Part shown: positions 8,361 to 45,673 of the stretch, piece after piece
Numbering within the stretch: position 1 is the first letter of the stretch
How the letters are laid out: every line of letters begins with the position of its first letter
The notes under the pieces: model-generated
What the model was told of the DNA's origin: nothing
Seen by the model: only the letters and a program-made list of their open reading frames with translations
Databases searched by the model: none
DNA from: Prevotella sp.
GTDB lineage: Bacteria; Bacteroidota; Bacteroidia; Bacteroidales; Bacteroidaceae
Direction: 5' to 3'
Length of the DNA stretch: 54,267 bases
Assembly: GCA_017483185.1 (NCBI GenBank)
Contig: JAFULM010000042.1
Location: forward strand, 1-54,267
Position numbers and translations under genes: made by a program

Positions 8361-8384
8361 AACCGACCCCGGCCTTCCCCAAGG

Positions 8385-8532
8385 CTACTCTCTGCACACA
8401 TCTTTATTCTGGGTTTATACTAACATAACAAGCTCATTTGGACGTCTTTAAGTGTGGTAATCTCACTTAAAGACTTCCAAATGAGCTTGTTACGTTGTTT
8501 CCAATAAGACAAAAAATGTGTGCAGAGAGTAG
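8385..8532. mobile_element. MITE-like 148-bp palindromic insertion
   Basis: The element starts CTACTCTCTGCACACAT (8385-8401) and ends with its exact reverse complement (8516-8532). Inside is a second inverted repeat, 8422-8454 against 8464-8496 (33 nt, two mismatches, 9-nt loop). An 11-bp direct repeat, CTTCCCCAAGG, flanks it on both sides (8374-8384 and 8533-8543), as a target-site duplication would. It sits in a copy of the CCCTCCCC repeat family. No room for a transposase, so mobilisation would be in trans. Alternative: a recombined terminator. Confidence 0.6.
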
Positions 8533-8568
8533 CTTCCCCAAGGGGAGGGTGCCTGCGGGATGAAGGGC
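8533..8568 (-). repeat. CCCTCCCC-family interspersed repeat (copy 1, interrupted)
   Basis: Reads on the minus strand as GCCCTTCATCCCGCAGGCACC followed by CCTCCCCTTGGGG. The other half of the copy appears to be CCCCGGCCTTCCCCAAGG just left of the inserted element (8367-8384). Three same-type copies lie at 11123, 11273 and 39482. Confidence 0.7.
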
Positions 8569-20528: not shown

Positions 20529-20571
20529 TCAAAAAAAGTGTGCCCTGCAAGTCTTGCAAGGCACACTTTTT
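20529..20571. terminator. Bidirectional terminator-like hairpin
   Basis: Arms AAAAAGTGTGCCCTGCAAG and CTTGCAAGGCACACTTTTT (one mismatch), almost no loop, T-run on either strand. It lies between the pectate lyase palindrome and the DUF6804-like gene. Confidence 0.75.
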
Positions 20572-20690
20572 AAATGAAGAATGAAGAACGAAGAATGAAA
20601 AATTTGCTGCCGCATTTCCAACGTTGGTTCAATCGCAGTTGGAAAGGCGGCAGCAAATTTTTCATTCTTCACTTTTCATTCTTCATTTAA
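20570..20690. repeat. Palindromic element at the pectate lyase stop codon
   Basis: 53-nt arms (20570-20622 and 20638-20690, four mismatches) around a 15-nt loop. Outer module GAAGAATGAAGAACGAAGAA, core AATTTGCTGCCGC. The lyase stop codon (TGA, 20685-20683 on the minus strand) and its last codon lie inside the right arm. The same outer and core modules form the element at 41462-41633. Confidence 0.85.
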
Positions 20691-23809: not shown

Positions 23810-25687
23810 TTATCTGACATCAAAAGGGAATTCTCCTATTATGCTTCTTATTTTATCCCTGTATGCTTCATCAAACTTATTGTTCTTTAAAAGATTGTCA
23901 ATATCCGTTTTATCAACGTCGGTAATGCCGTTATAAAAGCCGATGAAATCTAAAACAGCATCATTGAACGATTCGTTGACAAGTCCTTCGATCTTCTCGG
24001 GGTAGTTCTCGCCTTTCAGGCGTTGCTCGTTACCTGAATTGTAGGAATCTGTCATCTGCCGGTATATCGCGTCAAATATGTCTTTCGTATATGCGTATAT
24101 GTATCCTGCAAGATAGTAGGCGCTTTTCTTGAATATAGGCAGCCTATTTATGTATTCATGCGTGTGCTGCTGTATCAGTTCTCTTGTCTCGTTCAGTATG
24201 CTGTTGGCGATGATAAACCTGAAACACAAATTGTTCAGTTCGGACTCGTTGCCTGTATCCAATAGACTGCTATTGAAGATACGTTCGTATTCTGCTTTTT
24301 GGAATACACGTGACTTCCCAAGTCCTGAACGCAGCGAGCAGGCCATGAAGAGATAGACGGCACGATATGCCAGCGCCACATTGATCATGCTGATGATTTT
24401 CTGTCCCTCTTTGATATTTTTGCCTTCTCCTTTACGGTCGTAGATGATATCAAACTTCTTTAGTACCTCGGCTATCTTTATCTGTATGGGGTCATTTGCC
24501 ATCAGAGAGTAGCTTTTTACAGCATTCTGATTGTTGGTGGCCTTAATGATATTTGTTTTGAAGTCAGTCTGTTCAGGACTGATTTCATATATGCGTACCA
24601 TAACATTAGCAGGTCGGAAATTATCGCTGGTGTTCTCTCCGTATTTTGCGCTATAAAGGGCGTTGACTGTCTGGCAGCCATTTATAATCTGCATGTTTTC
24701 TAAAGTTAGATTCTGAGTCTTTTTCTTTACGTTTACATTGCCTATTGTGAGCCTGTCGCATATAATGCTGATGCCGTTGTTCATGTATGGAAACCACAGG
24801 CTTTCGGAACTTGTAATAGTAGCGATAATGTCTTTATTGACATTTCCGCGGTCACCGAGATAGAGTCTGATGTTCTCTGTATAAAGTTGATTGTGATGAT
24901 ATTTGTTCTGCAGACGTATGAATTCGTTTATGTTACACATTCCAACGATTGCTTTCTTTGGTAATCCAAGGCTTTCACGTTTGGAGTTGTCCTCCAACCG
25001 GTATGAATACATTCCTTCGTTTACAATATCCAAAAATTCCTCACCGATCTGTATCTTTCCTTCTTTTGACAGCTCAGCAATCTCCTTTGCACCATATATC
25101 TGAATGGAGAAACCCAGATGTTGTCTGTCTTGCTCAAATCGGGCAAGAACATTGCTTATCTCCTTTTCATTGTTCCGGTATATGCCGGTGGCATTGTTTA
25201 TGTAGTGACAATATACAACGATGCGGTGCCCTCTTATGGATAGGAAATCCTCGCATTTTTGTTTTATTTCAACGACAATCTCATTGTCGGACGGCTTGTC
25301 AAGAAATTCAGGGTGTACAAAGTTGTTGTTTATAAACGTGGCAAAGTTCATCAATTCAACCGGTGACGCGCTTTTATTATCGCTTTCATACAGTTTAAAT
25401 TGGAATATATGCAGCTGCTTTATCCTTGTACTTTCAGTGTTAATTAGGGCATAGGCATCAATCAGAAGTTCGTTCCTTCCGGTTATGCTTTTGTCTGTAA
25501 CGACAAAATCCTCAAAGAAACCGTCTTCGGAATGGTCCATGACTAAAGATGCGCTCATTGCGTAGTATAGCAATTCATTGGGCGCATCCTTGACTTTAGA
25601 TGTCGCTTTGCCCGCTTCTATTTGAAAAGATTCGTTTGTTCTTCTGAAAAGATCAAGTTCTTTTTGCAGATCTTCATTTATATACAT
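23810..25687 (-). CDS. AIPR-family protein (abortive infection phage resistance)
   Basis: 625 residues, soluble. The AIPR signature is clear in the middle: TENIRLYLGDRGNVNKDI (about 270), LWFPYMNNGISIICD (about 297), MQIINGCQTVNALY (about 330), and IIKATNNQNAVKSYSL (about 375). The family was named after an abortive-infection phage-resistance protein; members often sit near restriction or defence genes. The N-terminal 150 residues (VVTDKSITGRNELLIDAY...) have a PD-(D/E)XK-like look but I cannot assign residues. The gene is AT-richer than neighbours and is followed by a homing endonuclease and a toxin-antitoxin scar, consistent with horizontal gain. A TAATTTTG -7 box is at 25779-25772. Confidence 0.85.
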   Translation of the reverse strand: MYINEDLQKELDLFRRTNESFQIEAGKATSKVKDAPNELLYYAMSASLVMDHSEDGFFEDFVVTDKSITGRNELLIDAYALINTESTRIKQLHIFQFKLYESDNKSASPVELMNFATFINNNFVHPEFLDKPSDNEIVVEIKQKCEDFLSIRGHRIVVYCHYINNATGIYRNNEKEISNVLARFEQDRQHLGFSIQIYGAKEIAELSKEGKIQIGEEFLDIVNEGMYSYRLEDNSKRESLGLPKKAIVGMCNINEFIRLQNKYHHNQLYTENIRLYLGDRGNVNKDIIATITSSESLWFPYMNNGISIICDRLTIGNVNVKKKTQNLTLENMQIINGCQTVNALYSAKYGENTSDNFRPANVMVRIYEISPEQTDFKTNIIKATNNQNAVKSYSLMANDPIQIKIAEVLKKFDIIYDRKGEGKNIKEGQKIISMINVALAYRAVYLFMACSLRSGLGKSRVFQKAEYERIFNSSLLDTGNESELNNLCFRFIIANSILNETRELIQQHTHEYINRLPIFKKSAYYLAGYIYAYTKDIFDAIYRQMTDSYNSGNEQRLKGENYPEKIEGLVNESFNDAVLDFIGFYNGITDVDKTDIDNLLKNNKFDEAYRDKIRSIIGEFPFDVR

Positions 25688-26086
25688 GATTCCAATGTCT
25701 TATTAAATAATATGTATGGTGAATGTGATGGCATATTGGAAAATATGTCTCGGATAATATTGCCTCAATCGCAAAATTACGCAAAAATTCTGATATTTTT
25801 AGCTTTCGATGTATAAAAAGTTAATATCATACCATTTTTATGGTCTGTTTTTCGCCATCAGCGCGTTTTTTCTGGGACCGGATGTCCGCTGGAAGTCGAC
25901 GCAGCGGGAAGAGTTATAAATATATGACATCTTTATAGGACGGCCAAACGAATTCGTGGAGTCGAAGGTCTATCATGTGCCCAATAGAAATAGAGAATAG
26001 GAGCCTGATTATTTATGAGGTAGGTTGCAACAATTAGTTATACTTTGGACGCGGAAGCATGGAGAATCGTTACTGTCGGTCTTAAG
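25688..26086. other. Intergenic: promoter region and toxin-antitoxin scar
   Basis: 399 bp, AT-rich. The left third holds the AIPR promoter (-7 box at 25772-25779, minus strand). The right half (25920-26060) holds a degenerate DUF3791-DUF3990 remnant; otherwise nothing is seen. Confidence 0.6.
25925..26060 (+). pseudogene. Scar of a DUF3791-DUF3990 toxin-antitoxin pair
   Basis: In one frame the sequence reads Y-D-I-F-...-V-E-S-K-V-Y-H (to 25976), matching the junction D-D-I-T-...-L-E-S/M-K-V-Y-H of the intact pair at 43.86 kb; 13 bases (AAGGTCTATCATG) are identical. After E-P-D-Y and a stop, a shifted frame gives L-Y-F-G-R-G at 26038-26055, like the DUF3990 motif L-D-F-G-R-G. Stops and a frameshift show decay. 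Short, so alternative chance similarity cannot be excluded. Confidence 0.5.
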
Positions 26087-27148
26087 TCATTTAAAAATAT
26101 CTTCTAATCTCTTTTTCAGTATCAAATATTTTCTTCCATTTTTCTTGGTTGGCACTCCGTGCGTTTTTATATGATAATAAATCACATTCCTTTGTCTGCC
26201 GAATAACGATATGGCTTCACCCGTGGTAATCCATTCATCATCATTTAAGTCATCAATAGTATAAGTTGGTGATTCTGAATATTCCCATTTGTACCCTCCT
26301 GCAGACTTTCTTTTACCTTTACAGCACTTAACTATGCAACTGCCGTCAATACCGATTGTCTTCCCTGCCAATGTTGGTGAATCATATTCTGCGATGAAGG
26401 TCCCATCTGATGAAATTTGTTTTACTTTAACCTTAATGCGTTCACTTATTTTCTTTCTTGTCTCATCCGAGACCCTGTGGTTTCTATGATATTCCAAACT
26501 TGAATTTCGGATTTTGTTTCTATAAGAATCACTTAAAGATTGACCAAATCGACAGTGTTTTTCTCCAGCCTTCGAAGATGACATCTTTTCTCTTGAAACC
26601 TTGGAATGTCTCTTACCATACATCCCATTTTTTTCTCCGCTTAAACTTTTGGAAACTTTCCTCTTGTGTTCTTCCAAGGCATTAATTTGTTCTCGGAGTT
26701 CTCGATATTCTTTAGAGGCCCATCGTTGCTTCATTATTCGGCTATGGTAAGCTTTTTCTTCTTCTGTTCTTGGTCTCAATTTTCTGCCTGTTCGTTGACG
26801 AGATAATTCAGCCTTTTGTTCGGCAGAAAATCGGAATCCACGAGTCGTGAACCCACCATAAGTCATGTTGTATCCTCTTTTGAAGCTATCATAATATCGA
26901 ATATAAAATTCTTCAAGTTCATCAAGTTTATCACGAGCTTCTGAAGAATCGCTAAAACTTATTCTTTCCAAAACTTCATAATTAAAATTGGCTGGCCCAT
27001 ATTTCGCTCTTGCTCTATCTATTTTGTCACCGCCATATGTCTTATTTAAATTCATGAAAGTTCTTCTGCGACGCTTTTCATCTGTCGTTTGTCCAATATA
27101 TACTTTACCAACAGGACTTGTATATTTATATATAATACCAATCAGCAT
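26087..27148 (-). CDS. Freestanding GIY-YIG homing endonuclease with NUMOD domains
   Basis: 353 residues. N-terminal GIY-YIG nuclease: GIIYKYTSPVGKVYIGQT (4-21), with a later FKRGYNMTYGG. The centre has three NUMOD3-type repeats (HSKVSREKMSSS, SLSDSYRNKIRNSS, HRVSDETRKKISER) for DNA contacts, then a NUMOD1-like block (FIAEYDSPTLAGKTIGIDGS... GGYKWEY, about 245-295), and a C-terminal helix-turn-helix-like segment (TGEAISLFGRQRNVIYYHI). It cuts specific DNA sites to promote its own spread. No intron or intein is apparent around it, so it is freestanding. AT-rich and flanked by defence-type genes, so recently acquired. Confidence 0.88.
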   Translation of the reverse strand: MLIGIIYKYTSPVGKVYIGQTTDEKRRRRTFMNLNKTYGGDKIDRARAKYGPANFNYEVLERISFSDSSEARDKLDELEEFYIRYYDSFKRGYNMTYGGFTTRGFRFSAEQKAELSRQRTGRKLRPRTEEEKAYHSRIMKQRWASKEYRELREQINALEEHKRKVSKSLSGEKNGMYGKRHSKVSREKMSSSKAGEKHCRFGQSLSDSYRNKIRNSSLEYHRNHRVSDETRKKISERIKVKVKQISSDGTFIAEYDSPTLAGKTIGIDGSCIVKCCKGKRKSAGGYKWEYSESPTYTIDDLNDDEWITTGEAISLFGRQRNVIYYHIKTHGVPTKKNGRKYLILKKRLEDIFK

Positions 27149-27343
27149 ATTGTCTTAGATGATTTGTTATATGATATATTTGCCGTAGTAGTTGTTAAAT
27201 CAAATAGTCCATACGCTATTTATGCAAGACGCTTAACGTTAAAAATAATAATGTCTATTTTTTAGTGTAAATGAAAAAGCCGTGGCGGCATGGGGAAAAG
27301 GCTGCTTCATCAGTCCTTTGGATGTCATCTTTGATGTCTTGTG

Positions 27344-27784
27344 TCATAAGACGACCAACCGGGATTCTGCGACCAACAGTGATGCAAAAATCATGAAATC
27401 AGGGTCATAACATTCTCCCACGACCGGTGTGCCATCTTTGGTATAATATATTCCGGCATGGAAATGGTCCTTTGATTTCACCCTTACACGCCCGGAGTAG
27501 CCCTCATGGCTTATCTCATGGCATTTCCTCACGTGCAAATCGGCATAGCCATACAGACTGTCCTCTGGTTTGCGCGGTCTGAATTTCACGTTGTCTTTGG
27601 CCGGGGTCTTTAGCTTTGTGCGCCATACGGACAAATAATCCTCTGGCGTTCCGGAGGCTAACCTGACCAGACTGAATGCCGTAAAGGTCAGTTCGCCATC
27701 AACGACCATAGACGGTGAGAATATTATCCGTGCGACATGCTCATCATCATCAACCTGAATTAAGTTTGAGCCGCTTTGCTTCAT
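27344..27784 (-). CDS. Third gene of an unassigned three-gene cassette
   Basis: 146 residues, soluble. Not recognised. It has one short motif worth noting, K-S-K-D-H-F-H-A-G-I-Y-Y (about 103), where D/H/H could be a site, and a C-terminal hydrophobic helix (MIFASLLVAESRLVVL). Its ATG overlaps the previous stop by four bases (ATGA, 27784-27781), so it is translationally coupled to the second gene. As I recall, small proteins with a D-x-x-H-A motif accompany TIGR04255 proteins in other genomes; this is unverified. Confidence 0.65.
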   Translation of the reverse strand: MKQSGSNLIQVDDDEHVARIIFSPSMVVDGELTFTAFSLVRLASGTPEDYLSVWRTKLKTPAKDNVKFRPRKPEDSLYGYADLHVRKCHEISHEGYSGRVRVKSKDHFHAGIYYTKDGTPVVGECYDPDFMIFASLLVAESRLVVL

Positions 27785-28362
27785 ACTTCAAGGAATGATA
27801 ATATGTTGTCAACGACTTTTGCCGCTCTTGCCGGATTGAATGACTCCATGCCTGTCATCTTTGATGATTTCATCATCGCCGCATACGAGAATCCGTTGTT
27901 GCCCACACTGACAGAAGCTATTCTTTTTCCTTTTGCGGACAACAGAAAGGTGCCGTTGGGGCTTGGGAACAGATTCCATGAACGCAGTTGAGAGCCGGTC
28001 AGCTGCGATAACAGAGATTTCATATTGCGATATGACTCCGCTTCCATCGGATGGGCGTCATATCCGTCCCATCCTTGTGTGTTGAGGTCTGCATACAACT
28101 GTTCGAGACGCTTCAGCATGTTCGATTTGACGTTGAACTCTTCCTTAAACATGTTTGCCGTAGATTCGGACAGGGCAAGTTGAGTCTCTTTTGAATCATA
28201 GGCAGATATGCCGGTCTCGGCCGGAATGGCTTGTCCGCAAGCCTCCGGCAGCCCCGCCGTCAAGGCAAATGCGCATGACATCGTGTAGACTAAAGCCTTT
28301 CGCCCGTTCCCACCTGATTTTTTCAGGGGCTCTTCTATCTGAAACTTTGGCTTTTCCATCAT
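27781..28362 (-). CDS. Second gene of an unassigned three-gene cassette
   Basis: 193 residues. A polar N terminus (1-22) precedes one hydrophobic segment (ALVYTMSCAFALTAGLPEA, about 23-42) that could be a membrane anchor or export signal. The C-terminal half holds GWDGYDAHPMEAES (about 95) and LFPSPNGTFLLSAKGKRIASV (about 133). W-D-G-Y-[DG]-A followed by a P-x-x-G-hydrophobic strand is a pattern I associate with partners of TIGR04255 proteins. ATGA overlaps on both sides join it to its neighbours. No known function. Confidence 0.65.
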   Translation of the reverse strand: MMEKPKFQIEEPLKKSGGNGRKALVYTMSCAFALTAGLPEACGQAIPAETGISAYDSKETQLALSESTANMFKEEFNVKSNMLKRLEQLYADLNTQGWDGYDAHPMEAESYRNMKSLLSQLTGSQLRSWNLFPSPNGTFLLSAKGKRIASVSVGNNGFSYAAMMKSSKMTGMESFNPARAAKVVDNILSFLEV

Positions 28363-29093
28363 TGTTTTTCCATTAAGGCAATCACGTCATCAGAGACCAT
28401 GTCATGGAACGCTCCATAGATCACGTCGTTCAACGTCGAGGCGTATTGCAGGAGGTCGCGTGCCGGGACGTCTTTTGCCTCTGCGACCAAATCCAATGTA
28501 AGGACTATATGTTCATTGTCAACAATCTCGGCTGAGAATATGACCTTAAGACTCCCGCCCTCCAGGCCGAGATTTGCCTCGCGGCTCAGTTTCACAGGCC
28601 AAGGGCCATCGGGCACTTCGATGCTGGTGATGTCATGTATGTTCTTTTCCTTGAACGTGTATAGGATGGCCTCCTTGTATACGCTCAGCGCGTTTTCGGT
28701 ATTTATTTTCCACTGATTGCGCTTTGTCAGACTCAAAGTCTTTAGTTCATCAACTTTTCTTATACTCAGGAACGTTCCGATCTTTCCTAAATCAGGCAGC
28801 ATCGTACTTGCAAATGACTTGTAGCTTTTTGCGTCTATACTGACAGACGCTGCACCGGTTGAGAAGGAGAAAGAAAGGCCGTTGTCTTTCGATGCCACCG
28901 TTATAGTGGTAAGTTCCTTATCATCCTGAGGCTTAAAGAGAACATTGAAATTGTCCTTGAAGTATGAGACCAATCCCTGCGCATCGGCAGACAATGGTTT
29001 GTCCGCAAACGACACGCCAGCAGAGACATTAAGCAGGAAAGTTCTGTTATAAACTTTATGCTCGTGATTGTTGTATGGATTATTCAAGGCCAT
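28359..29093 (-). CDS. First gene of an unassigned three-gene cassette (TIGR04255-like?)
   Basis: 244 residues from the ATG at 29093 (MALNNPYNNHEHKVYNRTF); the frame runs on to 29177 but that part overlaps the promoter. The N-terminal half is beta-rich (TFLLNVSAGVSFAD), the rest helix-strand mixed with EVPDGPWPVKLSREANLGLEGG and VLTLDLVAEAKDVPARDLL. Size, beta-rich start and a terminal segment of the type LHDVIYGAFHDMVSDDVIALME recall the sporadically distributed TIGR04255 family, whose role is unknown. A TAACTTTG -7 box with an ATTG 19 bases upstream (29145-29115) fits a promoter for the three-gene unit. Confidence 0.65.
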   Translation of the reverse strand: MALNNPYNNHEHKVYNRTFLLNVSAGVSFADKPLSADAQGLVSYFKDNFNVLFKPQDDKELTTITVASKDNGLSFSFSTGAASVSIDAKSYKSFASTMLPDLGKIGTFLSIRKVDELKTLSLTKRNQWKINTENALSVYKEAILYTFKEKNIHDITSIEVPDGPWPVKLSREANLGLEGGSLKVIFSAEIVDNEHIVLTLDLVAEAKDVPARDLLQYASTLNDVIYGAFHDMVSDDVIALMEKQ

Positions 29094-29114: not shown

Positions 29115-29145
29115 CAAAGTTAACAAAAAAACGTCAAATAGCAAT
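29115..29145 (-). promoter_or_regulatory. Putative promoter of the three-gene cassette
   Basis: On the minus strand ATTG (29145-29142), 19-nt spacer, TAACTTTG (29122-29115), 22 bases before the ATG at 29093. One mismatch to the Bacteroidota consensus. Confidence 0.55.
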
Positions 29146-29743: not shown

Positions 29744-29948
29744 ACGGCGGAGATTTTTCGGTGACAAAACGGGCATGAAAATGCAAAATCCCGCCGGCCG
29801 CGTCTCAATTTTGAAAGTGCCGAAATTCAGAATTTTCAGGACATAATGATGTCTCGACGGCATATATGGGAACTGTATGGCGATGAGGCTTTCTTGCGAT
29901 TGGGATAGAGGGATGGAGGGATGGAGGGTGGAGGAGGTGCGGAGTTAT

Positions 29949-30145
29949 GAGGGTGTATCAAAATGCAGGGGAAGCACATTGTAGGGACATATTTTTCGCT
30001 ATGCTCAACAACTTGTCTTGTATTTGTCCGCCTGTAACGTGTTGATATTCAATGGACGTTTGGCGGACAAATACAAGACGAGTTGTTGAGCATAGCGAAA
30101 AATATGTCCCTACCAAGCATCATGTGCCCATTTTGATACACCCTC
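29949..30145. repeat. Nested palindromic element with 17-bp terminal repeats
   Basis: Outer perfect 17-bp repeats GAGGGTGTATCAAAATG (29949-29965) and its complement (30129-30145). Inner 52-nt arms 29981-30032 and 30062-30113, one mismatch, 29-nt loop. Modules: GTAGGGACATA, TCGCTATGCTCAACAAC and GTCTTGTATTTGTCCGC. No coding capacity. Two-tier build like 8385-8532; no target duplication is obvious. Confidence 0.8.
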
Positions 30146-30251
30146 TTAGATAAGTTGCATGATATGTCGCCGCAGTTGTGTGTCTGTGGTGCTTCTTTCC
30201 GCCGCCGGAAGTATTGGCGTGGCGGTTAGTGACGGGCATCATTATAAAGCA

Positions 30252-39643: not shown

Positions 39644-41464
39644 ATGATAGAACAATCAAAAAACCGTTTCATGACATTGCTGTTGCTGCTTAGCGCAGTT
39701 ATGCGGATTTACGCGCAAGATCCGCGCGAGAGAACTTACTACTATGAGATACTCGAGCCGAGGCATGAACACAAGGAGAAGGTAGCGGGATATGCCGCCG
39801 AACGTGTGAAGGAAAATCTCGGCCGCGGGCTTGTTGCCGTATCGGCCGATGAGGGGCGGAGCGTATATCTCAGTTGGCGACTGCTCGACGACGACGCCTC
39901 CGATGTCGCGTTTCACGTGTATCGCGAGTCCGAAGGCAAGACGCGCCGCCTCACCGGCAAGCCCGTGACCCGCACGTGCGACTTCACCGACCGCAAGCCT
40001 GTGTCCAAGGCCGTCTACACCGTGAGACCCGCGAAAGGCCAAGGGGCCGCGGGCACGGTGGCGGTAGAGCTGGCCTCGCTCCAAAACTACACCTCCATAA
40101 AGCTGAAGGACGGCGACTGTGCGGGCAAGATTGCTCTGGCCGATCTCAACGGTGACGGCGTCTACGACTATATCGTGCGCACTCCCGCGTCAAACGTAGA
40201 CCCCGGAATGCCCGCCGACAAGACCGGTATCACATATAATATATCGGCCTATCTCAGCGACGGCACATATCTGTGGACCGTCGACCTCGGCCACGGCATA
40301 GAGCCGGGCGTGTGGTTCTCGCCTTTTGTGGCATACGATTTCGACGGCGACGGCCGTGCGGAGGTGGCATTGAAGACCGCTGGCGACGACTTCGTGAGAG
40401 ACGCGAGAGGGCATGTCTGCGGCGGAAGCGAGTCGATGACCGTGCTCGACGGAATGACGGGAAAGGTCATTGCGTCCGTCCCCTGGCCCGAACGTAACTA
40501 TCGTTACGGCGATGTCAACAGGCAGAACCGCAACCAGATGGGTGTGGCTTTTCTCGATGGCAAGACGCCGTATATACTTGCCGCCCGCGGCACATACAAG
40601 CTGATGACGGTCGATGCGTGGATGCTCCGCGACGGAAAACTCACCCGCGCGTGGCGTTGGGACGGCGACGAGGAAAATCCTCTGGTGCGCAGCATGGGCG
40701 CACACAGTATGGTCACCGGCGATGTTGACGGCGACGGGCGCGACGAGATACTGCTCGGCTCGTGCATGCTCGACGACAACGGTACGCTGTTGTGGTCGTC
40801 GGGACTCGGACACAGTGACAAGGCTTATCTCTGCAAACTGCGTCCCGACATCGAGGGCTTGCAGGTCTTTCTCGCTCTTGAGCCGAAGAACGAGCAGGGA
40901 CGTGGTGTGTGCGTGGTTGACGCTAAGAGCGGACGGCAGATATGGGGCATCGGTCACACGACATATCATGTGGGTAGCGGCATGGTGGCCGACTTCAACC
41001 CCGAGTGGCCGGGACTGGAGTGTTTTGCCGGCGAAGACCGTAAGGGCGGCAGCTCCGCCAAATATCTGTTTACGGCCGACGGCAGGAAGATGGACGTAGA
41101 GCCGGGTGACGTGCCCGGATGCCACCCGTGGGTGTGGTGGGACGGCGACCTGCTGCGCGAGACATTTACACGTGGCGGCGGCAAAGGCCGTTATCGCGGA
41201 CAAAGCGTGTGGAAATGGAAAGGTGAAGTGCTCACCGATGGCATCGAGGGTGGTGTGATTGTCACTGCCGATGTCGACGGCGACTGGCGCGAGGAGATAA
41301 TAACCTCACTGCCCGGAGAGCTCCGCGTCTACCGCACAAGCATCCCCGCACTCGACCGCCGCGTGACGCTCATGCAGGACCCGCTGTACCGCAGCTACAT
41401 AATGCACGGCAGCATGGGATATCCCCAGTCGCCCGTCACGTCATATTATCTGGGAGAAAAGTAA
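39644..41464 (+). CDS. Rhamnogalacturonan lyase, PL11 family
   Basis: 606 residues with an N-terminal signal (MTLLLLLSAVMRIYAQ, from residue 10 of the frame). It cleaves rhamnogalacturonan I by beta-elimination. The PL11 eight-bladed propeller shows in repeated calcium-binding DxNxDG/DxDxDG motifs: ADLNGDGVYDY, YDFDGDGRAEV, GDVDGDGRDE, DVDGDWREE; with GSGMVADFNPEWPGLECF and HPWVWWDGDLLRE. Its stop codon is the first triplet of a 67-bp perfect inverted repeat. It precedes kduI/kduD by 300 bp, so the three likely serve one pectin pathway. No T9SS tail is seen. Confidence 0.92.
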   Translation: MIEQSKNRFMTLLLLLSAVMRIYAQDPRERTYYYEILEPRHEHKEKVAGYAAERVKENLGRGLVAVSADEGRSVYLSWRLLDDDASDVAFHVYRESEGKTRRLTGKPVTRTCDFTDRKPVSKAVYTVRPAKGQGAAGTVAVELASLQNYTSIKLKDGDCAGKIALADLNGDGVYDYIVRTPASNVDPGMPADKTGITYNISAYLSDGTYLWTVDLGHGIEPGVWFSPFVAYDFDGDGRAEVALKTAGDDFVRDARGHVCGGSESMTVLDGMTGKVIASVPWPERNYRYGDVNRQNRNQMGVAFLDGKTPYILAARGTYKLMTVDAWMLRDGKLTRAWRWDGDEENPLVRSMGAHSMVTGDVDGDGRDEILLGSCMLDDNGTLLWSSGLGHSDKAYLCKLRPDIEGLQVFLALEPKNEQGRGVCVVDAKSGRQIWGIGHTTYHVGSGMVADFNPEWPGLECFAGEDRKGGSSAKYLFTADGRKMDVEPGDVPGCHPWVWWDGDLLRETFTRGGGKGRYRGQSVWKWKGEVLTDGIEGGVIVTADVDGDWREEIITSLPGELRVYRTSIPALDRRVTLMQDPLYRSYIMHGSMGYPQSPVTSYYLGEK

Positions 41465-41633
41465 GTGAAGAGTGAAGAACGAAGAATGAAGACGTGTTGA
41501 TGAGCGTAGCGAGTAATTTGCTGCCGCCTTTCAATTCCCTTCACCCTATATCTGTCCCAAGTACATGGCGGCAGCAAATTACTCGCTACGCTCATCAACA
41601 CGTCTTCATTCTTCGTTCTTCACTCTTCACTTA
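41462..41633. repeat. Perfect 67-bp palindrome starting at the PL11 lyase stop codon
   Basis: Arms 41462-41528 and 41567-41633, 67 of 67 matching, 38-nt loop. The left arm starts with the TAA stop. Modules in order: GAAGAACGAAGAATGAAG, GACGTGTTGATGAGCGTAGCGAGT, AATTTGCTGCCGCC. The first and last are shared with 20570-20690, the middle with 29991-30015. Confidence 0.95.
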
Positions 41634-41686
41634 ATTTTCGTTCTTCACTCTTCACTTAATTTTCGTTCTTCACTTTTCATTTTTTA
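41612..41686 (+). repeat. 25-bp direct repeats downstream of the palindrome
   Basis: Two exact units of TTCGTTCTTCACTCTTCAC plus TTAATT (41612-41636, 41637-41661) and a partial third. The first unit lies in the right arm of the palindrome, so the duplication arose from it. Confidence 0.85.
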
Positions 41687-43647: not shown

Positions 43648-43866
43648 ATGAACAGGGACGTACTGGAATTTGTCACTTTCTGTATCGGGGCAGTGGCCGG
43701 CCGTCATGGCCTCTCGCGCAACGATGTCTACAGCCGGCTGAAAACTTCCGGCATACTCTATGGCTATATAATACCGAGCTATGACGTGCTTCACACGTTC
43801 AGTTCCGGATATATCGTGGACGATATCACGGACTTTATGAGGAAGAAAGGAGTGTTGGAGTCATGA
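43648..43866 (+). CDS. DUF3791 protein (putative antitoxin, first copy)
   Basis: 72 residues. The DUF3791 pattern is clear: VLEFVTFCIGAVAGRHGLS, YSRLKTSGILYGYIIPSYDVLHTFS, YIVDDITDFMRKKGVL. The family is small, soluble, and regularly encoded beside DUF3990 proteins, so I read it as the antitoxin-like partner. Its stop overlaps the next start by four bases (ATGA, 43863-43866). The second copy follows the DUF3990 gene. Confidence 0.85.
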   Translation: MNRDVLEFVTFCIGAVAGRHGLSRNDVYSRLKTSGILYGYIIPSYDVLHTFSSGYIVDDITDFMRKKGVLES

Positions 43867-44336
43867 AGGTCTATCATGCTTCAAACATGCGTGTGGAATG
43901 TCCGGACACATCCCATTCGCGTCGGGAGCTTGACTTCGGCCGTGGCTTCTACGTCACGACAATACGGCAGCAGGCTGAGAAATACGCTTGGCGTTTCATG
44001 CGCCGTGGTGAACAGGCATGGCTGAATGTATATGAATTGGATGATGACCTTGCCGGATGGGCCGTCAGATGTTTCGACAGCTACGATGAGGAATGGCTCG
44101 ACTTTGTCATCAGGTGCCGCAAAGGTGTGGCCGAAGATGGAGATTATGACATGGTTGTGGGCGGAATAGCCGATGACAAGGTCTTTGAAACTGTCGATTT
44201 GTTCTTTGCCGGACTGTTGCCAAGGGAAGAAGCCCTCCGGCGTCTCGCTTTTGAAAAGCCCAATATTCAGTATTGTATCTGCAGCGATGCCATGCTGAAA
44301 GAAAGTCTGACGTTTATAGAAGCCATAAGATTATGA
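43863..44336 (+). CDS. DUF3990 protein (putative ADP-ribosyltransferase-like toxin)
   Basis: 157 residues. DUF3990 start KVYHASNMRVECPD, then ELDFGRGFYVTTIRQQAEKYAWRF, WLNVYELDDDLAGWAVRCF and a late QYCICSDAMLKESL. The H-x-[S/G]...D-F-G-x-G-F-Y pattern matches ADP-ribosyltransferase-like folds, to which I believe DUF3990 belongs; a toxin role is inference from family context. It overlaps both flanking DUF3791 genes by ATGA, so the three are one translationally coupled unit. Confidence 0.8.
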   Translation: MKVYHASNMRVECPDTSHSRRELDFGRGFYVTTIRQQAEKYAWRFMRRGEQAWLNVYELDDDLAGWAVRCFDSYDEEWLDFVIRCRKGVAEDGDYDMVVGGIADDKVFETVDLFFAGLLPREEALRRLAFEKPNIQYCICSDAMLKESLTFIEAIRL

Positions 44337-44560
44337 AGACAGAGGATAGCGGAAAGCGCATTGTGCTGGATATGAAGATAGCACGCATCATCGATATCTA
44401 CAGCAAGGAGCATGGTGTCCCGCTGGAAGAAGCAGCCGATGATTACTACAAATCGGTCACGGCCGAACTCATCGAGGACGGTGTCGCCGACCTCCATTGC
44501 CGTAGTGACAGATATCTTGCCGACGAATTGTGGATAGAGATGCAGAAAAAGAGGAAGTAA
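44333..44560 (+). CDS. DUF3791 protein (putative antitoxin, second copy)
   Basis: 75 residues from the ATG at 44333, which overlaps the DUF3990 stop (ATGA). An upstream ATG at 44273 is inside the DUF3990 gene and is rejected. Sequence: VLDMKIARIIDIYSKEHGVPLEEAADDYYKS, ELIEDGVADLHCRSDRYLADELW: the same DUF3791-type layout as the first copy but diverged, with few identical residues. Two antitoxin-like genes around one toxin-like gene. Confidence 0.75.
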   Translation: MKTEDSGKRIVLDMKIARIIDIYSKEHGVPLEEAADDYYKSVTAELIEDGVADLHCRSDRYLADELWIEMQKKRK

Positions 44561-44581
44561 ACTCAAACATAAATAAAGATA

Positions 44582-45673
44582 ATGTTGATTATGGAAGACT
44601 GGCATAAGATAATAACGAACTTCCTACGAAGTATTCCTGATTCGGAGAAAGATTATCAAGAGCGTATTGTGTCTTTTCTGATTTCTATAGGATTAGGGTG
44701 GCCGGATGAAGATATAGAGCAGCAGCGTTCAATAAATATCGGTTCTACGCAGCGTACGATACCAGATATTGTCCTGTCCAAAAACGGAAAACCGGAAGTC
44801 GTGATAGAAGTTAAGGTCCACCATCATGTCCAGCTGGAGAAGGACAGGCTGCAGCTGTTATCATATATGAAGCAACTGGAGATAAATACCGGTATCTATT
44901 TCGGTGAGAAGGTGGAAGTCTATTATAAAGAATTAGGACGAGACTTTCCTGAAATAAAGCTGCTTGATATAGGATTGTCAAAGGATGATTCTAATTGGAA
45001 GCAGTTTGTTGATTGGTTTAAATGTGATGCTTTCAGCGCGGAGCGGCTGAAGACGCATTATGAAGATAAGATGGCCGCTTTGCATGATGAGGAAGTTGTC
45101 AACCAGCAGTTGGCTGAATTAACTTCAGCAGTTGGGCTTGATTTTGTGACATGTGCCATAGCCGACCGTCTGAAAAAGTCATGTGTGAGGCAGAAAGCGA
45201 TAGACTTGATTCTGTCTAAGATTAACATAAAAATAGAGCGGACGGACGAGACACAGGATAAACCGGTGTCCCATGAAGCAGTTGTCAGCACGATGCCGTC
45301 ACATAGGAAAAAAGAAAAAAGGCCTCCGGTGTACTTTACTTTTAATGGTAAAGGGCATTATGGAGTCCAAGATTTGGCATTTGAAATTGTATCAAAGGTA
45401 ACGGAATTAAATCCAGATGCTACGTTTGATGAATTGCATCAGATCTTTAGATCAGGTAAAAAAACAGAAATTATAAAACCTCTTGATGAAATACGGCATT
45501 GGAGAGAGGGTAATACTACTGATACTCAGAAAGGGACGCGATGGCTTGAAGATAAGTTTATAACATCCGGCAAAGGAGAAAAATTCGCACTTCATTGTAT
45601 ATGGACACAAGATAATATTATTCCAATTATTGAAATAGGAAAGTCTTACGGATTTGATATAAAACGTATTTGA
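44582..45673 (+). CDS. Orphan HsdR-N-like nuclease with a C-terminal accessory module
   Basis: 363 residues; starts at 44582 or 44591 (MEDWHK). The N-terminal domain has the PD-(D/E)XK pattern of type I restriction enzyme R-protein N-terminal domains: RTIPDIVLSKNGKPEVVIEVK (about 60-77) with P-D and E-V-K, then RLQLLSYMKQLEINTGIYFGE. The helicase part of HsdR is absent. The C-terminal 85 residues (LNPDATFDELHQIFRSG... FALHCIWTQDNIIPIIEI) match a module I recall from other restriction-like proteins in Bacteroidota. No hsdM or hsdS nearby. Likely a standalone defence or DNA-repair nuclease. Confidence 0.7.
   Translation: MLIMEDWHKIITNFLRSIPDSEKDYQERIVSFLISIGLGWPDEDIEQQRSINIGSTQRTIPDIVLSKNGKPEVVIEVKVHHHVQLEKDRLQLLSYMKQLEINTGIYFGEKVEVYYKELGRDFPEIKLLDIGLSKDDSNWKQFVDWFKCDAFSAERLKTHYEDKMAALHDEEVVNQQLAELTSAVGLDFVTCAIADRLKKSCVRQKAIDLILSKINIKIERTDETQDKPVSHEAVVSTMPSHRKKEKRPPVYFTFNGKGHYGVQDLAFEIVSKVTELNPDATFDELHQIFRSGKKTEIIKPLDEIRHWREGNTTDTQKGTRWLEDKFITSGKGEKFALHCIWTQDNIIPIIEIGKSYGFDIKRI

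Follow-up and report, generated by a model that had tools for sequence, protein, structure and literature searches.

A three-gene cassette of Prevotella as a probable toxin-antitoxin-like operon with a divergent relative of TIGR04255 as first gene

The stretch of DNA that was analysed, called the window in the following, is a single contig of 54,267 bases from an assembly of Prevotella sp. (2.47 Mb, 74.7% complete). Three consecutive open reading frames in the order A, B, C lie on its minus strand (Table 1), and both junctions are ATGA overlaps. A first-pass annotation had described three genes without a known function, two 4-base overlaps and a promoter of their own, and all of these points were borne out. 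The pattern TTG-N19-TAnnTTTG, which we take to be the Bacteroidetes promoter consensus, is matched exactly by a promoter-like site ending 21 bases before A; five such sites were seen in the whole window, with 0.41 expected. Neither Pfam nor PADLOC gave a significant match for A, B or C.

Table 1. Features of the cassette and of its surroundings in the window
Feature	Positions	Strand	Details and basis
Gene A	28359-29093	minus	244 aa from ATG 29093; ORF
Gene B	27781-28362	minus	193 aa; ORF
Gene C	27344-27784	minus	146 aa; ORF
WDGYDA motif of B, residues 98-103	28054-28071	minus	alignments A9, A13
Promoter-like site TTG-N19-TAACTTTG	29115-29144	minus	exact pattern match upstream of A
AIPR-domain protein	23810-25687	minus (strand of the cassette)	downstream of the cassette; PF10592 3.7e-38; PADLOC AbiU 1.3e-45
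GIY-YIG/NUMOD3 endonuclease, group I intron-type	26087-27148		between C and the AIPR gene; TIGR01453 2.2e-26

The two neighbours of the cassette, an AIPR protein and a homing endonuclease, had been named correctly. Besides its NUMOD3 segments, the endonuclease has a weak match to HTH_17. A GC content of 0.414 was found across 23810-29093, with 0.573 and 0.563 in the flanks. The AT-rich island reported for this region is clear in the AIPR gene (0.40) and the endonuclease (0.361), but less so in the cassette (0.476). The gene cobO adjoins the cassette; of 30 genomes from the same genus, 20 gave a match to it, and the window's own is one of the 20. The insertion site was compared with tblastn (1e-5) in the five best other cobO genomes of the genus. 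cobO and DUF2795 were matched in all five; A, B, C, the AIPR gene and the endonuclease were matched in none of them in the stretch taken. After DUF2795 (genes named by eye) follow type IX secretion genes in L148 and, behind one small gene, in L146, other genes in L147 and L149, and an integrase-rich stretch in L150. Thus, the cassette region is a variable site. Four long imperfect palindromes occur in the window (8384-8533, 20570-20690, 29946-30148 and 41456-41639), 81-86% identical to their own reverse complement over 121-211 aligned bases, and one of them sits between A and DUF2795. In or beside a low-GC patch at 43863-45673, a DUF3990 gene (2.3e-47; PADLOC candidate PDC-M13B) is followed by an HSDR_N_2/PDC-S57-like gene, another possible defence locus.

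The middle protein B has an N-terminus of its own and a conserved domain (residues about 77-192) with the elements WDGYDA, NGT, ASxSxG and FSY. The W-D-G-Y-D-A motif noticed in the first pass was found again, and all 13 rows of alignment A9 share its W98 and D99. One sub-threshold match (E 0.088) was obtained for B with Pfam, and PADLOC 2.0.0 returned no family for A, B or C at E 1. Of the single hydrophobic segment described for B, a moderate stretch is left (residues 24-42), but not a convincing membrane helix; with a best 19-residue Kyte-Doolittle mean of only 1.24 a membrane role was rejected. The search of solved structures with the B profile gave five short matches of the NGT stretch to designed beta-trefoil structures (best 2.1e-4), which were judged to be repeat artefacts, and nothing else at E <0.01. 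In the text of the papers searched, the matches listed for WDGYG or WDGYD were unrelated by title.

S52 and H109 of C are present in every one of 35 rows, in which R19, F37 and I112 are conserved to at least 90%. The H-F-H-A motif reported for the third protein is thereby placed, as the H of the conserved HA is His109. This conservation suggests that C is an enzyme. C had no match in Pfam, and the profiles of A and C had none among solved structures at E <0.01. The Pfam scan of 19 members of the C family gave four families, each hit by a single member (best E 0.021). With NCBIfam, 35 members matched 13 scattered families, the best at E 2.5e-4 in one member (SaoC) and at 5.7e-4 for a family matched by two members; the window's C matched none. 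On these searches, the C family appears to have no convincing named family or relative of solved structure.

The first pass had noted a resemblance to TIGR04255 neighbourhoods. This family (sporadTIGR04255, NCBIfam) is of unknown function, and neither TIGR04255 nor DUF7689 was mentioned in the text of the papers searched. A reached 17 bits (E 0.004) with the model and is sub-threshold at the curated cut-off of 30 bits; the Pfam scan of A gave no match, and no match to TIGR04255 was found in the window's own genome. Direct homology was not accepted: hhalign gave P 0.011 for window and L002 against 0.05 for the best wrong pairing, and P 0.26 for the window's A alone against the TIGR04255 type. 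A profile of 26 TIGR04255-type rows also misses A among the window ORFs. Alignment A7 misplaces the N-terminus of A, and a bridge test was used in place of the direct comparison. In its first step, A of window and L002 was aligned with A of L056 and L057 (hhalign, E 2.8e-7), and in the second the latter two were aligned with the 26 TIGR04255-type rows (E 2.6e-13). With a profile of L002, L056 and L057, A ranks first among the window ORFs (1.4e-12), and L056 and L057 alone retrieve it at 1.2e-4. The resemblance is upheld in this form: A is a divergent TIGR04255 relative, linked by bridging sequences only. It shares with the family the first position in the operon and the length (244 aa, 252 model positions). 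In contrast, it stays below the cut-off and is without the RYIN motif present in most rows of A7.

Searches with the single sequence of A retrieved two of the 151 genomes of the family, namely the window's own and L002 (28% identity), and in the order only the window's own among 393 genomes. These counts underestimate the spread, since the B search of the same order sample reached three more A-B-C loci (L056, L057 and L059). No match to A was found in viral contigs, and tblastn of A, B and C against plasmids gave none.

Of 395 genomes sampled from the phylum, 23 have a match to TIGR04255. The TIGR04255-type loci examined were taken from these 23 genomes, from 21 loci of several phyla and, in six cases, from viral contigs. 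By eye, the TIGR04255-type gene mostly leads two small genes. Like the window, many of these loci combine a WDGYGA-like motif in the second gene with H[AS]x[IV] in the third. Profiles of the second and third genes (18 rows each, built without the window) were compared with the 234 window ORFs of at least 60 aa, and the best ORFs were B (9.7e-18) and C (7.2e-6), respectively. Alignment to their own families by hhalign gave 4.8e-13 for B (residues 77-192) and 6.4e-7 for C, with wrong pairings at 0.05 to 0.75. For the reverse test, 28 B rows and 25 C rows taken solely from the window's order were made into profiles, which were run at E 0.05 against 250 downstream ORFs of 52 TIGR04255-type loci, of which 49 are distinct (L016/L039, L017/L030 and L019/L047 were each fetched twice). 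B was detected in 26 loci, two of these matches being marginal (E 0.025 and 0.044), C in 21 and both in 16. Thus, many loci carry other or very divergent partners. The profile search proposed in the first pass hence found no Pfam or PADLOC family, while family profiles retrieve B and C. Furthermore, the homologues stay together, as had been asked, in three further A-B-C loci of the window's order and in loci of other phyla; neither unrelated housekeeping roles nor a lack of co-conservation came to light.

The partners that differ include known toxin families. The third gene is PemK/MazF in L011 (2.9e-13) and DUF7689 in L042 (9.9e-23), and in L003 and L037 it is HEPN-like below the Pfam cut-off. 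Second genes are HEAT-like in L010 and L046, also below the cut-off, and those of L003, L011 and L037 have no or a marginal B signal. L002, the closest relative of A, combines a weak B signal in its second gene (hhalign P 0.0037) with a different third gene. A constant first gene with swapped effectors points to a shared control step. A variant TIGR04255 cassette is present in L008, L010, L015 and L021, with a third gene of an unnamed family that starts MFLARKITRAKW or similar. At L033:10001-11245, a single open frame of 414 aa spans both A and B, either through a natural fusion or through an assembly error.

Cassette genes were also identified on IMG/VR contigs: L049 carries A, B and C, L051 by profile B only, and L050, L052 and L053 by profile C only. 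Their viral origin is taken from the collection, and the contigs may include host DNA. The C relative of L050 had two matches, both annotated as hypothetical protein, on two Rhizobium plasmids; in phage records no C relative was found with this one query. The C and the N-terminus of B from L081, as well as the B of L049, gave no matches in plasmids. Such contigs, the AIPR/AbiU neighbour and the cassettes in which PemK, HEPN-like or DUF7689 takes the third place would also be in line with a three-protein anti-phage complex acting by abortive infection. A would then be the phage sensor, B an adaptor rather than a strict antitoxin, and C an effector active only in the complex. Two points speak against this proposal: none of the three proteins fits a PADLOC model, and B and C also occur without A.

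With the B profile, 10 places in 9 of the 393 genomes of the order were detected, the window among them. The entries L001, L025, L055 and L065, which are the window itself or a fragment, were not counted again. A-B-C loci are the window, L056, L057 and L059. B-C pairs without an adjacent A were found in L060, L061, L063 and L064, where the neighbours look unrelated by eye, and L058 has B with a truncated C. In L062:581-1258 the pair stands behind an unrelated-looking first gene of 225 aa without a Pfam match above the cut-off, so a TIGR04255-type gene is not the only possible first gene. The layout of L058 and L066 resembles the insertion of one toxin-antitoxin pair into another: behind the truncated C come a SocA_Panacea gene (PF13274, 1.9e-23) and an unnamed gene of 142 aa. 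The window's B is 32% identical to that of L064 (A9), and its C is 34% identical to those of L061 and L063 (A10) and 39% to that of L081 (A12). The B and C of the window are closest to pairs without A, and thus, judged by these identities, A could be a late, non-essential addition.

In 18 genomes of one genus of the window's order, 48 B were detected in 13 genomes, with up to 11 per genome. All 38 C detected there lie directly behind a B (38/38), and none stands without one (0/38). The dependence of C on B is one-sided in this genus: 10 of the 48 B are without a detected C, although C matches score lower than B matches and some of these cases may be missed C. Among 30 fetched B loci, 23 had a C ORF, two a truncated C (L066, L086) and five none. 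Two of these five, L074 and L090, lie no more than about 310 bases from the end of a contig; the informative orphan loci are L085, L087 and L091. A was found in none of the 18 genomes with B-C pairs, in a search in which no positive control matched. With this limit, the many-copy pairs without adjacent A argue against the abortive-infection complex. They are what would be expected of a selfish addiction module without a role in defence, in which loss of B would kill the cell and A would be an accessory stabiliser. In this one genus the pairs are multi-copy, patchy and differently placed, and an orphan B is kept where C is absent (L085, L087, L091) or truncated (L066, L086). The third gene, found at other loci together with different effector families, suggests a trigger instead, and we regard pure addiction as improbable.

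The N-termini of the B relatives were examined with the modules of L081 and L078, which were searched in the 18 genomes of this genus (E 0.01). The L081 module gave nine matches, itself and eight small proteins, and the L078 module ten, six B loci and four small proteins. These 12 small proteins without a B domain matched at E 1e-6 to 0.01. A gene stands directly behind 11 of the 12 (none behind L169). Ten of these 11 genes were scanned, and two PIN and six RelE were identified above the Pfam cut-off and two RelE below it. Thus, the N-termini of B relatives are modules that antitoxins of known toxin families carry as well. Furthermore, the B of L089 (269 aa), the one locus in which such a fusion was examined, has a Panacea domain (PF13274, 2.8e-16) in front of the C-terminal half of the B domain (1.2e-6), and C follows (5.9e-8). 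The window's B has a different N-terminus with none of the recognised antitoxin modules; the antitoxin-domain evidence reaches it through its relatives. An N-terminal G[ILVMA][SG] motif, looked at also as a possible chaperone-addiction segment, was more frequent in A-linked than in stand-alone B (11 of 26 vs 4 of 31, p 0.017), a difference confounded by ancestry, and was rejected as an A-docking motif on B. L041 and L048 were left out of this count, as were L066, L067, L069 and L079, duplicates of L058, L060, L063 and L064.

Sharing of N-terminal modules and of the Panacea domain with antitoxins speaks against B as an adaptor, and with the pairs described above it makes the abortive-infection complex unlikely. 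If the cassette were a common accessory operon with no link to toxins, serving for instance the envelope or metabolism, overlaps and company would be coincidental. The absence of a known catalytic domain from A, B, C and the scanned C relatives would suit such an operon, but B occurs sporadically (9 of 393 genomes of the order) and third genes are swapped with toxin families. Already disfavoured by the position of C behind B in 38 of 38 cases and by the antitoxin modules on B relatives, this explanation is highly improbable.

We therefore prefer, with a probability of about 0.66, a type II toxin-antitoxin-like operon with B as antitoxin, C as toxin and A as accessory protein. The first pass had suggested a small defence or toxin-antitoxin system, and it is the toxin-antitoxin side that gained from the stand-alone B-C pairs and the antitoxin-type modules on B relatives. 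That C is toxic and is neutralised by B is likely. C would be a toxin, probably enzymatic, that stops the cell. B would be a protein antitoxin, its conserved C-terminal WDGYDA domain neutralising C, while the exchangeable N-terminal part may set dimerisation, regulation or sensing. The third component, A, would be optional, and its most likely task would be to stabilise or license B or to sense a trigger. If A were titrated, for instance by a phage protein, B would fail and C would stop the cell. An anti-phage purpose of the cassette, suggested by the AIPR neighbour, the contigs of the viral collection and analogy, may be given slightly less than an even chance. Control of B by A is put forward tentatively and with somewhat less weight. 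Of similar weight is the idea of a large cross-phylum class of three-component toxin-antitoxin defence systems in which TIGR04255 proteins form the hub and the toxins (C, PemK, HEPN, DUF7689) can be exchanged. This class would be CmdTAC-like with a third component unrelated to SecB, and C would represent a new Arg-Ser-His toxin family.

The novelty of the cassette is a toxin-antitoxin-like pair of undescribed families together with an uncharacterised third component; the B-C pair is possibly listed without a name in the NetFlax or Panacea data sets. TIGR04255, a sporadic family, would receive its first testable role. A role would also be given to the families of B and C, which occur in several phyla without a Pfam entry being found, with as many as 11 copies of B in one genome. 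A toxic C would be the founder of a new toxin family. As the same pair exists with and without A, the contribution of a third component to a toxin-antitoxin pair becomes directly accessible to study.

Among known anti-phage systems, no system model of PADLOC 2.0.0 was matched. The features of type II toxin-antitoxin systems are present in part: B and C are an adjacent, overlapping (ATGA) and conserved pair, C is absent without B in the one genus (0/38), and domains in common with known antitoxins are found in B relatives, not in the window's B. With the PemK/MazF and HEPN-like loci L003, L011 and L037 the cassette shares the type of first gene and the three-gene order; their third genes, in contrast, belong to other families and their second genes have no clear B signal. 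TIGR04255 itself is reached through intermediates, with A under the curated cut-off.

Panacea is described as an antitoxin domain (PMC8832971). In multidomain Panacea antitoxins the non-Panacea domain (Phd-C, PAD1, ZBD) neutralised in the three tested, and Panacea itself was proposed as sensor (PMC10440598). PanAT and the cassette have in common the adjacent antitoxin-toxin pair, and the multidomain antitoxins have a separate neutralising domain (PMC8832971, PMC10440598); the B relative L089 carries PF13274. In contrast to PanAT, the window's B is without a Panacea domain (PF13274), C is without a Pfam family and a TIGR04255 relative stands in front.

The toxin-antitoxin-chaperone system CmdTAC likewise consists of three genes for a toxin, an antitoxin and a third protein. 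According to PMC11618068, the stability of the antitoxin depends there on a SecB-like chaperone and lasts until a phage capsid protein titrates the chaperone. The third protein is related to SecB there, whereas A and the family profiles have no SecB match by sequence; SecB was not among the matches of profiles A1 and A7 in the solved-structure searches, and no chaperone-addiction tail was identified on B. The logic may nevertheless be the same, with a third protein protecting the antitoxin, and we propose by analogy that A could act in the manner of the CmdTAC chaperone.
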